From NCBI GenBank assembly GCA_002840675.1, contig PHBR01000003.1, positions 1-45,222 on the forward strand: a DNA stretch of 45,222 bases, given 5' to 3'. The translations under genes were made by a program, and so were the position numbers. This DNA is from Chloroflexi bacterium HGW-Chloroflexi-9. Lineage in GTDB: Bacteria; Chloroflexota; Dehalococcoidia; UBA2979. This document shows, one piece after another, positions 30,013 through 41,534 of the stretch (position 1 is the stretch's first letter; each line of letters begins with the position of its first letter). The notes under the pieces are model-generated. The model ran no database searches and had not been told where the DNA came from. It was given only the letters and a program-made list of their open reading frames with translations.

Positions 30013-30633
30013 ATGCAGCGCATACTGCGCAGGGTCCGGATCCCGGCACTGGTGGGGATCGCCGTCATCGTCGTGGCGCTCGCCCTCGGCTGCCGCGAGG
30101 ACGCACCCGCGTTCGCCTCGGCGGTCGTGGAGCCGCCGTCGCGCATGCCGGAGGTCAACCTGGTCGCGGGCGATGGGCAGCCATTCCGGTTGTCGGACCA
30201 GCAGGGCAAGGTGGTGGTGGTCTACGTGGGCTACACGTTCTGCCCTGACCTCTGCCCGCTCGCCATGTCCACGCTCGGGAACGCGTACGACCGCCTTCCT
30301 GCCGAGGTCCGGGACGGTGTTCAGGTGGTGATGATCACCGCCGACCCCGCCCGGGACACACCGGAGGTGATGGCGAAGTACGTCAACTACTTCGACCCGT
30401 CCTTCACTGGGGTGTCGGGTGATCCGGCAACGGTGCTGGAAACCCTCGCCTCATGGGGGATTCACCCGGAGCGGAGCGCGACGGGGGCGAATGGCTCGTA
30501 CTTCGTCTCACACCCGACCCGTATGTACGTATTCAACCGTGACGGTCTGCTGAGACTGCAGATCGCTCACGACCTCGAACCAGAGTCTGTCGCCAGCGAC
30601 CTTGAGCTCGTCTGGCGCGAAGGGAACGACTGA
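30013..30633 (+). CDS. SCO1/SenC family copper-binding lipoprotein
   Basis: The 206-residue protein has a signal peptide with lipobox LALGC (Cys27) and a thioredoxin-fold SCO domain. The copper ligands are Cys77 and Cys81 in TFCPDLCP and His167 in VSHPTRMY. SCO proteins deliver copper or reduce cysteines for assembly of the CuA site of cytochrome oxidase. It should be anchored outside the cytoplasmic membrane. An AGAGGAGAG box precedes the start. It lies 39 bases after the small membrane protein and two bases before the PCuAC gene, so they form one operon. Confidence 0.93.
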   Translation: MQRILRRVRIPALVGIAVIVVALALGCREDAPAFASAVVEPPSRMPEVNLVAGDGQPFRLSDQQGKVVVVYVGYTFCPDLCPLAMSTLGNAYDRLPAEVRDGVQVVMITADPARDTPEVMAKYVNYFDPSFTGVSGDPATVLETLASWGIHPERSATGANGSYFVSHPTRMYVFNRDGLLRLQIAHDLEPESVASDLELVWREGND

Positions 30634-30635
30634 CC

Positions 30636-31202
30636 ATGATGCACACCCCGAAGGCGGCCCGCCGCCTGATCCTGATCGCGGCGATCGCCGCTGCCGGCAT
30701 CTTCGCCACCGCCTGCTCGTCCGACTCGGACGAGGACGCCGAGGCGACGGCCGCGCCAGTCGAGGCGACGGCGACCCTCGCCGCGCCCGCGGCCCCGGCG
30801 ATCGAGATCGCGGACATTCGCGCCCGAGCGACCCCGGGCCTTGAGAATGAGAACAGTGCCGCGTACGCGGTGATCACCAACCGCGGCACCGAGAAGGACC
30901 GGCTCGTGAGCGGGTCAGTCGACGCTTCCGTGGCCGGCCGCGTCGAACTTCACACCACCGTGAAGGAAGGCGAGATGATGCGGATGGTGCAGGTGGACGG
31001 CTGGGACATTGAGCCCGGTGCGTCGCTGGAACTGATGCCCGGCGGCAACCACGTCATGATCCTCGAACTCGCGGAGCAGTTCGTGGTCGGTGACACCTTC
31101 ACCCTGACGCTGGTCTTCGAGCAGGCCGGCGAGATCGAGGTCGAAGTCCCGGTCATGGAGATCGCCACGAGTGGCATGGCGACGCCCGGCGCGATGAACT
31201 AA
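30636..31202 (+). CDS. PCuAC-type periplasmic copper chaperone (DUF461)
   Basis: The 188-residue lipoprotein has its lipobox at TAC (Cys27), an acidic/Ala linker, and a cupredoxin-like domain. The copper motif is complete: His106, ten residues, Met117, 21 residues, His139, one residue, Met141, exactly the H-x10-M-x21-H-x-M pattern of PCuAC proteins. PCuAC hands Cu(I) to the CuA site or to SCO1 during oxidase assembly. It starts two bases after the SCO1 stop, and the message ends at the hairpin 31233-31263. ATG 30636 or 30639 are both possible. Confidence 0.93.
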   Translation: MMHTPKAARRLILIAAIAAAGIFATACSSDSDEDAEATAAPVEATATLAAPAAPAIEIADIRARATPGLENENSAAYAVITNRGTEKDRLVSGSVDASVAGRVELHTTVKEGEMMRMVQVDGWDIEPGASLELMPGGNHVMILELAEQFVVGDTFTLTLVFEQAGEIEVEVPVMEIATSGMATPGAMN

Positions 31203-35737: not shown

Positions 35738-36907
35738 TTGCGCCGTTCTCTCATGGCTGGGGTGGGGGGGCTCGCTCTGCTCGCCCTCACCGTCACTGGC
35801 TGTTCCTCGGATGAGGACACAGCTACGCCAACCGCTGAGGCGACCGCTGCCGCTGCGGCGACCGAGGCTCCGACTGCTACGCCCGAGCCGGCCCCGACGC
35901 CGGAGGCCGGGGACATGCTCGGTGCTCTGACTCAGATCGACAGTGCCGGATTCGCGGCGATTGACGCTAACCTCAACGGCGACGCGCCGGAGATTGCTGC
36001 CGCATGGCTCGGCAAGGTCGAGCGCGCCGGCCTGGCCGCGCAGGCCGTGATGTGGCCCGACTCGATGAAGGCTGCCGTGGACGGGTTCGTGAAGGCCGCT
36101 GGTGACCTCGCCGCGGCGCTGGGCGCGGACGACGCCGCGAAGGCGGCCCCGCTGGCCAAGGCTGCGGCTGAGGCGCAGGCTGCGCTCAGCCAGGCCACGT
36201 ACGCGGCCGTCGCGGGCATGGCCGGTTCCAGCGAGGGCGCTGGCGCCACGCTGGGTGCGCTGGGCGTGATCAACCTCGCCGGCATCGGCTCGATGGAGAC
36301 CGCGCTGGCGGCCGACGGTGCCGAGATCAACCCTGCGTGGGAAAGCCGCGTCGCGAACGCCCGTGTGGCTGCGCTCGCACTGGTCTGGCCGGGTGAGTCG
36401 CAGGCTGCTGCGGATGCCTTCGTCACGGCAGCGACCGCGCTCGAGGCGGCCGTGAAGGCGAACGACGTGGCTGCCGCCAAGGAAGCAGCGGTTGCTGCCA
36501 ACAAGGCTCGCGGCACGCTGGCCACGCGCGGGTACGGTGCGCTGTCCGGCATGCGCCAGACGGCGGATTCGAATGGTGCCGCGCTGGCCGCGCTGGCGGC
36601 GGTGGACACCGCTGCGTTCCACGGCATCGACGAGGGGTTGAACGGCGACAAGCCAGAGATCCAGGCCGCCTGGGCTGGCCGCGTGACGACGGCGAAGCGT
36701 GCGATCCAGACGATCCGCTGGTCCGCGGAAGTCCAGACCGCTGCTGACGCCTTCTCGAAGACGATCTCCGCGCTGGAGGCCCAGCTCACCGCGAAGGAGC
36801 CGGACCTGGCGAAGGCCGGCGAAGCGGCTGCTGCGGCCCACGAGGCCCAGCACACGTTCAGTGAGATCGCCTACGCCGCCATCGGCGGCAAGGTGGCCGC
36901 TCACTAA
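35738..36907 (+). CDS. Triple-repeat lipoprotein A, unknown family in copper region
   Basis: The 389-residue protein starts at TTG 35738, with GGAGG 7 bases upstream. The lipobox is TVTGC (Cys22), followed by an Ala/Thr/Pro/Glu linker to about 57. Three helical repeats of about 110 residues follow (about 60-160, 171-272, 281-384). Each opens like LGALTQIDSAGF, has a conserved W near position 50, and ends with an Ala-rich amphipathic helix. Only the third repeat carries histidines: His295 in FHGID and His368/His372 in HEAQH. The second paralog has the same residues in repeats one and three. I know no named family. Copper genes on both sides suggest surface metal binding. The hairpin 36922-36959 ends it. 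Confidence 0.8.
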   Translation: MRRSLMAGVGGLALLALTVTGCSSDEDTATPTAEATAAAAATEAPTATPEPAPTPEAGDMLGALTQIDSAGFAAIDANLNGDAPEIAAAWLGKVERAGLAAQAVMWPDSMKAAVDGFVKAAGDLAAALGADDAAKAAPLAKAAAEAQAALSQATYAAVAGMAGSSEGAGATLGALGVINLAGIGSMETALAADGAEINPAWESRVANARVAALALVWPGESQAAADAFVTAATALEAAVKANDVAAAKEAAVAANKARGTLATRGYGALSGMRQTADSNGAALAALAAVDTAAFHGIDEGLNGDKPEIQAAWAGRVTTAKRAIQTIRWSAEVQTAADAFSKTISALEAQLTAKEPDLAKAGEAAAAAHEAQHTFSEIAYAAIGGKVAAH

Positions 36908-36921
36908 GCGTCTCGGGAATG

Positions 36922-36959
36922 ACGGGATTGGTGGCGGCAACCGCCGCCACCAGTCCCGT
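36922..36959 (+). terminator. Terminator hairpin after lipoprotein A
   Basis: A 17-base stem (one G-T pair) with an AACC loop begins 15 bases after the stop codon. It separates lipoprotein A from the downstream copper genes, which have their own promoter. Confidence 0.75.
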
Positions 36960-37053
36960 TCCCCGGGGTGTGGGTGCTATCACGCGGCCGACCTGTCCAG
37001 GGTGTGACACCGTCCGGCTCTCCAGCCGGGAGTTCACCAGGTTCCCCTTTCCG

Positions 37054-37082
37054 TTGTCCTTGTACGTGCACATACCTATGCT
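37054..37082 (+). promoter_or_regulatory. Promoter of the second copper block
   Basis: TTGTCC (37054-37059), a 17-base spacer and TATGCT (37077-37082) form the best -35/-10 pair in the window. The spacer contains TGTACGTGCACA, an imperfect inverted repeat that could bind a regulator. Transcription from about 37089 supports the GTG 37108 start. Confidence 0.55.
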
Positions 37083-37107
37083 CAGCGGCGAACCCCTGGG
37101 GCGCCCT

Positions 37108-37476
37108 GTGACGTTTGTGCGTAACACCGGCATCGTGGGACCGCGCCACCTTCAACAGTGGGCGCTCGTGCTCGTCATCGCCTGGATGCCGGGGCTCACC
37201 TTCTTCGGGCACTGGACTGCCCTCGCCGCCCCGCTGGGGCTGACGCCGGCCGCCACGCACACGCACTCCGCCTCGTCGGACCACGCGGCGCACTGCCACA
37301 CGGACGTGTCGAACTGTTCTGACCAGGCCGCTGGCGGCGCGGTGAGCGTGGTCCCCCCGGCCCTCGCCTCGGTGCTAATTGCCGCCGCGTTGGCGTTGAT
37401 GCTGGTCGCCCTGGTCGAACGGATCCCGGTCGGGCTCGCGCCCGTCCCCGCCGCGCCGCCCCCGCGCGCGGCCTGA
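37108..37476 (+). CDS. Small His-rich membrane protein heading copper block 2
   Basis: The 122-residue protein has two membrane segments (WALVLVIAWMPGLTFFG near residue 18 and ASVLIAAALALMLVALV near residue 88) joined by an exterior-type loop rich in metal ligands: THTHSASSDHAAHCHTD and NCSDQ. The tail is Pro/Ala-rich (VPAAPPPRAA). Loop His and Cys residues strongly suggest metal binding, and the plan matches 29572-29973 before SCO1. GTG 37108 is chosen because the promoter's -10 box covers the upstream ATG 37078. No named family was recognised. It is followed 53 bases later by lipoprotein B. Confidence 0.7.
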   Translation: MTFVRNTGIVGPRHLQQWALVLVIAWMPGLTFFGHWTALAAPLGLTPAATHTHSASSDHAAHCHTDVSNCSDQAAGGAVSVVPPALASVLIAAALALMLVALVERIPVGLAPVPAAPPPRAA

Positions 37477-37529
37477 GGCGTTCCGACCCGCTGCCGTTCA
37501 TCTCTGATGCCAGTTCTGGAGGCGCATCC

Positions 37530-38699
37530 GTGCGACGTACCCTTGTGACCGCTGCAGGCGGTCTGCTGCTGGTGGCCCTCACCGCCACCGCCTGTACCGC
37601 TGACCCTGAAGCCGACGCCACCGCTACCTCGGCGGCAACGGTCCCGACCATTGCCGCCGAGGTCACGCCGACCGAGGCGGTGCACGAAGCCGCCGCCCCC
37701 GACACGGGCGACATGCTCGCCGCGCTGTTGCTGATCGACTCCGCCGGGTTCCACAGCATGGACGAAGCGCTCAATGGCGGGGCGCCCGCGGTCGACGCCG
37801 CATGGTTGGGCCGCGCGCAGCAGGCGCGCATCGCCGCTCAGGCGGTCGTCTGGGCACCTGGAGCCGCTGAGGCCGCGCACGCCTTCATCGAGGCGACGAC
37901 CGCGCTGGAGGCCGCCCTGGAGGCTGATGACGCCGCCGGTGCCGCCCCGCTGGCCGTCGCGGCCCACGAGACCCAGCACGAGCTGAGCCACGAGGCCTAT
38001 CACCTGATCGCCGACGCGCCGGGCTCCACGTCTGGCGGCGGGGCGACCCTGGCGGCGCTCGCGCTGATCGGCCGCGCCGGGTTCCCGGCGATGGAAGCGG
38101 CGCTGACGGGCACGGCGCCCGAGGTCAACGTGGGCTGGGTGGGCGCTACCGCCAACGCGCGCGTGGCGGCGCAGGCCGTGGTGTGGCCGGGTGAGTCCCA
38201 GGCTGCCGCGAATGCGTTTGTTACGGCAGCGACGGCCCTTGAAGCCGCGCTTGAGGCGGACGACGCGACGGCCGCTGCCGAGGCGGCAGTCGCGGCAAAC
38301 AAGGCGCAGGCGACGCTGGCCACGCGCGGCTTCGGCGCGCTCAGCGGCATGCGCGGTTCCGCGCACTCAAACGGCTCGGTCCTGGCCGCGATCGCGATCA
38401 TCGACGCCGTGGGATTCCACGGCATCGACGACGCGCTCAACGGCGCGGATCCCGCGATCGACAAGGCGTGGGCCGCGAAGGTCACGCAGGCGAAGCGTGC
38501 GGCGCAGACCATCGGCTGGCCGGAAGGTGCGCAGGCCGCGGCGGAGGCGTTCGCGAAGGCGGCAGCGGCGCTGGAGCCGGCGCTGGCCGCGGATGACGTG
38601 GAGGCTGCGGCGAAGGCCGCGGGCGACGCTCACGGGACGCAGCACGCACTCAGCCACAACGTGTGGGCTGCCCTCGGCGGTGGCACGAGTGGGCACTAG
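37530..38699 (+). CDS. Triple-repeat lipoprotein B, His-rich paralog of lipoprotein A
   Basis: The 389-residue protein starts at GTG 37530. Its ribosome-site region (CTGGAGGC..CATCC) is nearly identical to that of lipoprotein A. The lipobox is TATAC (Cys22), then a short linker and three repeats of about 110 residues (62-162, 173-273, 284-384). Repeat 1 has His75 (FHSMD) and His146, 150, 154, 158, spaced by four along one helix face. Repeat 3 has His297 (FHGID) and His368, 372, 376. Repeat 2 lacks them (FPAME, ANKAQA). Regular i, i+4, i+8 histidines suggest a metal site on a helix. It overlaps the CopC gene by 11 bases, which ties it to copper handling. Confidence 0.82.
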   Translation: MRRTLVTAAGGLLLVALTATACTADPEADATATSAATVPTIAAEVTPTEAVHEAAAPDTGDMLAALLLIDSAGFHSMDEALNGGAPAVDAAWLGRAQQARIAAQAVVWAPGAAEAAHAFIEATTALEAALEADDAAGAAPLAVAAHETQHELSHEAYHLIADAPGSTSGGGATLAALALIGRAGFPAMEAALTGTAPEVNVGWVGATANARVAAQAVVWPGESQAAANAFVTAATALEAALEADDATAAAEAAVAANKAQATLATRGFGALSGMRGSAHSNGSVLAAIAIIDAVGFHGIDDALNGADPAIDKAWAAKVTQAKRAAQTIGWPEGAQAAAEAFAKAAAALEPALAADDVEAAAKAAGDAHGTQHALSHNVWAALGGGTSGH

Positions 38700-39303
38700 G
38701 GCCATCTGGCCGGTGCTCGGCCGGGTGATGGGGCTGGTGGCGGCATGCGCCGCCATCAGCCTCGCCGTCCCGATGGTCGCCGAGGCGCATTCGGAGTTCG
38801 TGCGCGCCAACATCCCCGCCGGCGAGGCCGTCCGCAGCGCCCCCGAGCGGCTAGAGGCCTGGTTCTCGCAGGAGGTGTTCCGGCGTGAGGGCGCCAACGC
38901 CCTTGAGGTTGTCGGCGCCGGCGGTGAGCGGTTCGACGATGGCGTCCTCGTCATCGACGACGCCGACCGCCACCATCTCTCCGTCGGACTGCGCGCCGAC
39001 ATGCCCCCGGGTTTCTACACCGTGACCTGGCGCACGCTCTCCGCCGTTGACGGCGACTCCGCCGAGGGCACCTTTGTGTTCACGATCGACCCAAACGCGC
39101 CGGAGGCGACGCCCGAGCCGACCCCTGCGCTCGAAGCAACGCCCGCGCCGGTTGCGACCGGCACGCCCGAGGCGGCGCCCTCAGCCACGGTCTCCGAACC
39201 GGAGACCGACTTCCCGTGGTGGGCCGTGATCGCCGGTGCCGGCATCCTGGCAGCCGGGCTCGCCGGTGTGTGGGCGGTCCGCCTGGACGGTGCCTCCCGG
39301 TGA
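38689..39303 (+). CDS. copC: CopC-domain copper-binding protein with C-terminal anchor
   Basis: The 204-residue protein has a signal peptide cleaved before the mature His34 (AEAHSEFVRA), a CopC beta-sandwich (LEAWFSQEVFRREG, YTVTWRTLSAVDG), a Thr/Pro/Ala linker and a single membrane helix at the C-terminus (WWAVIAGAGILAAGLAGVW). In CopC the Cu(II) site uses the N-terminal His and the Asp-Gly-His motif; here the second part is DGD (121-123), so the site is changed. GTG 38689 is chosen because it supplies arginines to the signal peptide; ATG 38728 is possible. It overlaps lipoprotein B upstream and the CopC-CopD fusion downstream. Confidence 0.85.
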   Translation: MGTRAIWPVLGRVMGLVAACAAISLAVPMVAEAHSEFVRANIPAGEAVRSAPERLEAWFSQEVFRREGANALEVVGAGGERFDDGVLVIDDADRHHLSVGLRADMPPGFYTVTWRTLSAVDGDSAEGTFVFTIDPNAPEATPEPTPALEATPAPVATGTPEAAPSATVSEPETDFPWWAVIAGAGILAAGLAGVWAVRLDGASR

Positions 39304-41534
39304 GGCGGGCCGGCGCGTGGGTGGCGCTGGTTGTGCTCGGCCTCGCGTTCTGGGCCGCTGGCCGAGGTGTCGCAGAGGCGCACGCCGTGCTCGTGCGGTC
39401 GTCACCGGCCGCCGGTGCAGAACTTGTGGCGCCGCCCGCCGCGATCGACCTGTGGTTCTCGGAGCCGCTGGAGGCGCGGTTCAGCACATTCGAGTTGCTA
39501 TCGAGCGAGGGTGAGTCGCTTCCCCTCGACGGGGTCGTGGCGGACCCCACAGACGAGTACCACCTGAGCGGTCTGCCCCGCGGACTCGGCCCCGGGCTCT
39601 ACACAGTCTCCTACCGGAATGTTTCACAGAGCGACGGGCACGAGTGGAGTGGCTCGTTCGCGTTCACCGTGCTGAACCCGGACGGCTCCGTCCCGTCCGG
39701 GCAGGCGTACCAGCCCGAACTCGGCGCCAGGAACTCGCCTGCGAACATCCTTGGCCGCTGGTTCACCTTCCTCGGCTTCGCGCTGGTGGCTGGCGGGGTG
39801 GCGCTGCTGCTCCCGCTGCATCGAGGCCGGCGCGCCATCGTGCTCGCGGTGCTGCACGCGGAAGCGTCCCGCCGCGTCGCGCTCGTCGGGCTCGCGCTGC
39901 TGATCACCGGCGGGGTGCTCGTAATTGTCGCGCAGGCGCAGGCTGTGCCCGGCGCCAGCGTGCTGGACATCGCCGGCGGGACGCGTGGCGGCAGGCTCTG
40001 GCTCTGGCGCATGCTCGCCGTCGAGGCCGTCGCGGTGATCCTCGGTCTGTCCTTCCTCGCCCGGTGCTGGCGTGCACCGCGCGCGGAGGTGGCCACGCTG
40101 GCGCTGCTCCCGGTGGCTGCGACCGCCGGCCTGCTCACCGTCTCGCTCCTGAGCCATGCCGCCGCCGCGCCCGGCTCTACCTGGGCGATCGCGTCCGACC
40201 TTATCCACCTCGTGCTCGCGGCGCTGTGGGTCGGCGGGCTGGCGACGCTCGGCGTGCTCCTGTGGGCGACGAGGCGACAGCCGCCGGTGCAGCGGGGCAG
40301 CGCCATGGTGTACGCGGTGGCCCCCTTCGCGACCTTCGCGGCTGCCGCCGTCTACGGCCTGGGTGTGACCGGCGTGGTGCGTTCGCTCGGTGAGCTGCCC
40401 GCGCTGCCGGCGCTCTGGGAGACCGAGTACGGGCGCTGGCTCCTGATCAAGTTCGCGCTGATCACGCCAATGCTGGGCGTCGCGTTCCTGAACCGCCGCG
40501 CGGTGGTCGCCCTGGGGAAGTCACCGTCCCGGGGAGCGCTGGACACGGCGGCGGCGCGCGTCCGGCGCCTCGTGCCGTTCGAGGTGCTGCTGGGGGCGGT
40601 GGTGCTGTTCAGCGTGGGCGTGCTCGGCCAGGTGCCGACGCCGCGTGGCGCCGTGGCGGTGGAGGCGGACGCCGGCGCGGTGTCGGTGTTCAACCGCGTG
40701 CAGCAGGCGGGCGACCTGAACGTGCACCTGCAGGTGACACCCGCGGTGGTGGGGCAGAACGCGCTACGCATCCACGTCTATGGCGCGGCCGGCGCCACCA
40801 TCGGCGGGATCGACCGCGTGGAGGTCACCTTCTCTCGCGCCGGGGCGCTGGGTGGTGAGCAGGTGCAGGCGGCGTCGCTGGGACAGGGGATATACACCGC
40901 AGAGGGCAGCTTCCTGAGCCTGGCGCTGACCTGGCAGGTCACCGTCGACGTGATCCGCCCGGGCCACGATGACGCACGCCTCGCGTTCTCCGTGCCGATC
41001 GGCAGCGGCACGACAACGGACGAGGCCCGCGCGGTGCTCGGCTCGCCCGCCCCGCAACTGACCACACGCTTGCTCGGCGCGCTGCTCGCCCTCATGGCGG
41101 GCGCCGGCCTCGCGCTCGGCTGGCGCCACCACCCGAGGTACTCGGCGGCCACGCAGACCGCCGGCTGGGTGCTCATCCTGGGCGCGTTGTGGGTTGGGAC
41201 GACCGGCGGTGGCGGTGCGACGCTGTCGAACCCGATGCCGGGCGATGAGGCATCGATCGCCCGAGGCGAGTCGTTGTTCCTGCAGCAGTGCGTGTCCTGT
41301 CACGGCCTGGGCGGCCGCGGCGACGGCCCGGAGGCCGCCCGTCTGGTGCCGCCCCCCGCGGACCTGCGGCTGCACGTGCCGCTGCACCCGGACACGGAGA
41401 CGTACCTGTTCATCACGGGCGGTGTCCCCGGCACGGCGATGCAGGCCTGGGACGAGATCCTCACCGAGGCGGAGCGGTGGGACCTGGTGAACTACCTGAT
41501 CGCGGAGTTCGGCGCGCCGGCCAGCACGCCCTGA
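39300..41534 (+). CDS. CopC-CopD-cytochrome c fusion protein
   Basis: The 744-residue protein starts at GTG 39300, overlapping the copC stop (GTGA). Its parts in order are: a signal peptide; a CopC domain with the full Cu(II) ligand set (mature N-terminal His28, DGH at 112-114); an eight-helix CopD membrane region (about 145-445) with conserved HAAAAPGS and LIHLVLAALWVGG; an exterior beta domain (about 460-590); two more helices; and a C-terminal class I cytochrome c with haem motif CVSCH (664-668) and probable Met714 axial ligand in GTAMQAW. CopC-CopD imports copper. The haem domain implies redox handling of copper or a link to the respiratory chain. The last 43 bases overlap the convergent Dus gene. 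Confidence 0.9.
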   Translation: MRRAGAWVALVVLGLAFWAAGRGVAEAHAVLVRSSPAAGAELVAPPAAIDLWFSEPLEARFSTFELLSSEGESLPLDGVVADPTDEYHLSGLPRGLGPGLYTVSYRNVSQSDGHEWSGSFAFTVLNPDGSVPSGQAYQPELGARNSPANILGRWFTFLGFALVAGGVALLLPLHRGRRAIVLAVLHAEASRRVALVGLALLITGGVLVIVAQAQAVPGASVLDIAGGTRGGRLWLWRMLAVEAVAVILGLSFLARCWRAPRAEVATLALLPVAATAGLLTVSLLSHAAAAPGSTWAIASDLIHLVLAALWVGGLATLGVLLWATRRQPPVQRGSAMVYAVAPFATFAAAAVYGLGVTGVVRSLGELPALPALWETEYGRWLLIKFALITPMLGVAFLNRRAVVALGKSPSRGALDTAAARVRRLVPFEVLLGAVVLFSVGVLGQVPTPRGAVAVEADAGAVSVFNRVQQAGDLNVHLQVTPAVVGQNALRIHVYGAAGATIGGIDRVEVTFSRAGALGGEQVQAASLGQGIYTAEGSFLSLALTWQVTVDVIRPGHDDARLAFSVPIGSGTTTDEARAVLGSPAPQLTTRLLGALLALMAGAGLALGWRHHPRYSAATQTAGWVLILGALWVGTTGGGGATLSNPMPGDEASIARGESLFLQQCVSCHGLGGRGDGPEAARLVPPPADLRLHVPLHPDTETYLFITGGVPGTAMQAWDEILTEAERWDLVNYLIAEFGAPASTP

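Follow-up and report, generated by a model that had tools for sequence, protein, structure and literature searches.

A predicted four-helix domain with three invariant histidines, encoded in Chloroflexota copper loci, is a probable copper carrier

The window, that is, the whole 45,222-nucleotide stretch of DNA analysed here, carries genes for several recognised copper-handling proteins and for two further proteins, A and B, which are separated by a small membrane-protein ORF. The features referred to below are as follows.

30013..30633, + strand: SCO1/SenC (PF02630, 3e-33)
30636..31202, + strand: PCuAC copper chaperone (PF04314, 8.8e-32)
35738..36907, + strand: putative lipoprotein A of 389 residues with three domains; start codon TTG, preceded by GGAGG
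35906..36226, + strand: A domain 1, His site lost (GFAAID)
36242..36556, + strand: A domain 2, His site lost (GIGSME)
36572..36895, + strand: A domain 3, FHxxD and HxxxH intact
36919..37476, + strand: small membrane-protein ORF; start uncertain, conserved part from about 37113
37530..38699, + strand: putative lipoprotein B of 389 residues with three domains; start codon GTG, preceded by GGAGG
37701..38021, + strand: B domain 1, His site intact; modelled, pLDDT 95
38040..38357, + strand: B domain 2, His site lost (GFPAME)
38370..38687, + strand: B domain 3, His site intact
38728..39303, + strand: CopC (PF04234, 3.4e-14); possible alternative starts at 38686 or 38695 would overlap B
39216..41534, + strand: triple fusion of CopC, CopD and cytochrome c; the start is that of the listed ORF and may not be the true one

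In the preliminary description A and B were presented as two proteins of 389 residues that share Cys22 and consist of three repeats, and this is borne out by the ORFs and by the family HMM, which finds three domains in each of them. The TTG start of A and the GTG start of B are supported by the likeness of their upstream sequences (GGAGGCTCATCC-TTG and GGAGGCGCATCC-GTG, respectively). Both proteins have a signal peptide and a lipobox, better in A (VTGC) than in B (ATAC, weak), and on this basis they are putative lipoproteins; the lipid-carrying Cys22 is the sole cysteine of A and likewise of B. The overlap between B and copC claimed in the same description holds for a GTG start of copC at 38686 or 38695, but not for the ATG at 38728. 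The complete set of histidines in A is 295, 368, 372 and 389 (the last residue), and its His site is kept only in domain 3 (His295, 368 and 372). B has His75, 146, 150, 154, 158, 297, 368, 372 and 376 plus four others, and keeps the site in domains 1 (His75/146/150) and 3 (His297/368/372). In the first two repeats of A and the second repeat of B all three histidines are gone and the conserved tryptophan is retained; each repeat of the two proteins has either both FHxxD and HxxxH or neither.

In the tree of the domains, A domain 2 groups with B domain 2, and domain 3 of one protein with domain 3 of the other (supports 100/95 and 99/88), which indicates that triplication of the domain preceded duplication of the gene. 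The same tree requires at least two losses of the His site, one in the domain 2 ancestor and the other in A domain 1. Since each of these separate losses removed all three histidines and spared the tryptophan, the three histidines appear to form one functional unit.

The small membrane-protein ORF between A and B did not match any Pfam family. It carries an FxGHW motif and an HxxHCHxxxxxC loop, and in about 20 loci a relative of it immediately precedes the domain gene; it is possibly a second copper protein. In the CopC-CopD fusion (39216-41534) the C-terminal part is a cytochrome c, with CxxCH located 81 residues before the ORF end. Such a cytochrome c is fused in 34 of 40 CopCD ORFs from the window and related loci, several of the others being cut by contig ends. 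The fusion suggests that copper reduction may be coupled to import.

Sequence searches with the domain repeat against Pfam, NCBIfam and PDB yielded no match above the cut-off, and a search of the open-access literature found no paper on the domain family. This agrees with the initial impression that no described family has such a layout; on sequence criteria, the repeat is an undescribed domain, i.e. one not found in Pfam, NCBIfam, PDB sequences or the literature searched. Several families gave sub-threshold matches that we rejected. Metal_resist (PF13801) was hit by 3 of 55 members (best E-value 0.0018). MPH2 (PF20675) gave 23.6 and 17.4 bits against a cut-off of 29 bits and was hit weakly by 2 of 55 members; EfeO, WXG100 and Caa3_CtaG also remained below threshold, and profile matches in PDB (CD81, designed proteins) were judged to reflect chance helical resemblance. 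Profile-profile alignment of the domain with two plasmid-encoded DUF305 (CopM-like) proteins using hhalign gave a probability of 0.3%.

Relatives were collected by protein and profile searches; an initial scan of the genome collection with a narrow alignment had retrieved three loci only. They are present in 15 of 196 kin genomes (that of the window included), in 16 of 400 genomes at phylum level and in 59 of 393 at class level, or 56 of 393 once three genomes with distant multi-domain proteins (G057, G060 and G128), which were also left out of the conservation counts, are removed. Most relatives consist of a single domain in 150-220 residues, and B is the positional equivalent of their single-domain gene. 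A lipobox was recognised by a simple rule in 52 of 61 relatives, and at least two histidines follow the domain in 49 of 61. Tandem triplets like those of A and B were found, among the genomes searched, only in the genus of the window (two genomes). Plasmid records are the source of all known cases beyond Chloroflexota: a first query gave one weak match, and a closer query recovered the same sequence among five members on plasmids of the Arthrobacter group (E-values 1e-11 to 1e-19). Phage records were also searched and contained no members.

Conservation was assessed on 61 domains from outside the genus of the window, representing 11 Chloroflexota families. His18 (60/60), Trp50 (61/61), His88 (61/61) and His92 (61/61) are the sole invariant columns of the aligned relatives, whose identity to B domain 1 is 17-51%; Asp21 is present in 48 of 60 relatives and Asp76 in 55 of 61. 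Judged by the three histidine columns, the FHxxD and HxxxH signature first noticed in A and B is far above chance. All five plasmid members keep the three histidines as well; one lacks the tryptophan and most lack the aspartate. The regular spacing of four by which the histidines of B continue beyond HxxxH had also been taken as meaningful, but it did not prove to be a family trait: the next step is His in 9 of 61 relatives, and two steps past HxxxH histidine is not among the common residues. Both this longer ladder and the three-repeat build are local additions.

AlphaFold2 predicts B domain 1 as a four-helix domain (pLDDT 95.1, pTM 0.88; helices at 7-18, 22-29, 38-52, 60-79 and 83-109 of the model) and finds four-helix folds in all three domains of whole B, the empty domain 2 included. 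As this His-less domain is still predicted to fold in the same way, the histidines seem separable from folding. In the model FHxxD and HxxxH fall on two helices, 1 and 4, as the preliminary description envisaged: helix 1 carries His23 (of FHxxD) in its second half, helix 4 carries His94 and His98, and in an up-and-down bundle His23 would be at a height similar to that of His94/His98. Distances between the histidines in idealised bundles depend on topology, being 8.5-17 Å in one topology and 14-20 Å in the other. Helix-face analysis puts the three histidines on the helix flank, outside the hydrophobic core, a position that would suit an exchangeable site. The closest solved folds are cytochromes c' (TM about 0.6, E = 0.046); no match has E < 0.001, and generic four-helix bundles score similarly. 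Comparison with models of viral proteins gave nothing significant.

A copC/copD, SCO1, PCuAC or YcnI gene lies within 300 bp of the domain, or is fused to it, in 56 of 61 loci, which are skewed to few genera (16 come from one close group within a single family) and are therefore not independent counts. Of the remaining five, two (L119 and L123) are near contig ends, two others (L107 and L132) lack a recognised copper gene in their vicinity although no contig end is close, and in L104 copC/copD is about 4.6 kb distant. The genome harbouring L104, where the domain gene stands alone, has a second member, L103, a PCuAC fusion located beside SCO1. Two kinds of operon are found repeatedly: in one, which is that of the window, the small membrane protein and the domain are followed by CopC and CopCD-cytochrome c, and in the other by SCO1 and PCuAC. 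In addition, the domain is fused C-terminally to YcnI/DUF1775 (PF07987, E-value down to 4.7e-20) in four genomes (L133, L134, L135 and L138), and N-terminally to PCuAC (PF04314, 1.2e-34) in two (L101 and L103). Nearly all homologs keep the histidines and adjoin copper genes, the opposite of what the preliminary description named as grounds for refuting it. CopC is encoded in 53 of 56 domain-bearing genomes vs 80 of 337 genomes without the domain, an association weaker than the linkage because genomes were counted irrespective of their relatedness. The plasmid genes, from Arthrobacter, Paenarthrobacter and Pseudarthrobacter, adjoin a copB copper-translocating ATPase, CsoR, a multicopper oxidase or DUF305, and their products have no obvious signal peptide, which implies that the domain may serve on either side of the membrane. 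Three of these five plasmids were typed as conjugative, and four of the members lie within annotated copper or metal islands.

Retention of the histidines and linkage to copper genes both support the early suggestion that A and B may bind copper at the cell surface. The best reading is a copper carrier or relay, because a lipid-anchored His domain is found in operons of, or fused to, partners with known copper roles. Specifically, we consider it probable that the domain is anchored at the membrane, binds copper through a tri-histidine site and relays it, once received, to CopC/CopD or Sco/PCuAC; that the metal is copper is highly probable, and more so than the carrier role. A and B would be lipid-anchored on the outer face of the cytoplasmic membrane, each intact domain binding one copper ion through the FHxxD histidine of helix 1 and both HxxxH histidines of helix 4, perhaps with assistance from the aspartate. 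Copper would be picked up outside the membrane, in many relatives with the help of the His-rich tail, and then handed on. At loci of the CopC/CopD type, including the window, copper would go to CopC and to the CopC-CopD-cytochrome c importer. At loci of the SCO1/PCuAC type the partners would be the CuA-assembly chaperones, Sco and PCuAC being the proteins that build CuA, and in the fusion proteins the partner is covalently attached. In the genus of the window, the domain was triplicated before the gene was duplicated; three of the resulting six domains have an intact site, and the empty ones may serve as spacers.

The main competing explanation is that the domain chiefly buffers or sequesters copper for resistance, without handing it over to import or CuA assembly. 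The plasmid members of the Arthrobacter group, which lie by copB, CsoR, a multicopper oxidase and DUF305 and have no obvious signal peptide, would fit such a role, as would the common His-rich tails. However, the literature connects the Chloroflexota partners SCO1, PCuAC, YcnI and CopC/CopD with copper supply (PMC8424229, PMC12362106, PMC9145763), and a covalent link to PCuAC or YcnI suits hand-over more than storage; we therefore regard sequestration as rather unlikely. The site could also hold another metal, such as zinc, nickel, cobalt or iron, with the copper genes nearby only by virtue of shared respiration operons. A set of three histidines, with or without Asp, is common for zinc, three histidines without Cys or Met would suit zinc or another metal, and 3 of 55 domains show the weak resemblance to Metal_resist. 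Nevertheless, it is specifically copper genes that adjoin the domain in two phyla and that are joined to it in two kinds of fusion, which makes this explanation distinctly improbable.

Even less probable is a b-type haem site in a bundle resembling cytochrome c' or b562, with the histidines of helices 1 and 4 binding haem and cytochrome c and CopD completing an electron chain. It could draw on the cytochromes c' as top fold matches (TM 0.6, E 0.046) and on the cytochrome c fused to the neighbouring CopCD, yet generic four-helix bundles match the fold equally well and there is no CxxCH on helix 4 as in cytochromes c', A and B having a single Cys each. In c' and b562 proteins haem sits at the end of the bundle, whereas the histidines of the domain are in the middle of helix 4 and late in helix 1, at another level; moreover, two histidines one turn apart on one helix favour a metal ion, and the PCuAC and YcnI fusions indicate copper. 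The least probable alternative is a structural adaptor for copper proteins, in which the histidines would hold the fold and bind no metal. Such an adaptor would agree with the equal invariance of the tryptophan and with the persistence of empty domains in A and B, but domains without the three histidines keep the tryptophan and the predicted four-helix fold, so the histidines are apparently not needed for folding.

Among known copper proteins, PCuAC (PF04314) is likewise an extracytoplasmic copper carrier encoded beside SCO1, often with a His-rich tail, but it has a beta fold, a Met/His site and no sequence relation to the domain; its profile does not match the domain and, in the fusions, covers the C-terminal part only. 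YcnI/DUF1775 (PF07987), a copper-binding partner of CopC/CopD, also has a beta fold, and passages of the study devoted to it describe an N-terminal monohistidine brace (PMC8424229), Cu(II) binding and, with a second report, exchange of copper with YcnJ (PMC8424229, PMC12362106). The same passages report DUF1775-PCuAC fusions in Proteobacteria and do not mention a helical partner. The PF07987 profile matches only the N-terminal part of the fusions and not the domain, and the CopC profile PF04234 does not match the domain either. CtaK (YtkA) of Bacillus subtilis, a small lipoprotein that has conserved His residues as well as a His-rich tail, replaces PCuAC in Bacillus and is required for the oxidase at low copper (PMC9145763); it is of the YtkA type and has a conserved Met too, whereas the domain has no YtkA match in Pfam. 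The Csp copper storage proteins are four-helix bundles as well, but their core is lined with Cys and binds many Cu(I) ions (PMC5171941), whereas A and B have no Cys beyond the lipid Cys22. The order of motifs in CnrX/Metal_resist (PF13801) differs from that in the domain. CnrX itself is an example of an all-helical extracytoplasmic metal site with HxxxH.

The domain thus represents a new protein family in a known kind of system, extracytoplasmic copper handling. It is fairly likely, with less assurance than for the carrier role itself, that it is an all-helical tri-His copper carrier unrelated to the beta-fold proteins CopC, YcnI, PCuAC and CtaK, and that it serves as a plug-in module occurring as a lone lipoprotein, fused to YcnI or PCuAC, in tandem, and in a plasmid form without signal peptide. 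If so, bacterial copper supply, in which unidentified parts are suspected, would gain an undescribed family and a further unrelated solution for copper carriage outside the membrane. The domain would also account for 'hypothetical' genes in Chloroflexota copper loci and in the mobile copper-resistance islands of soil Actinomycetota.

The distant multi-domain relatives (L128, 8414-10267; L129, 8379-9641; L130, 7184-8224) retain the tryptophan and HxxxH and seemingly lack the histidine of helix 1. One of them, L128, has a cytochrome c at its C-terminus.
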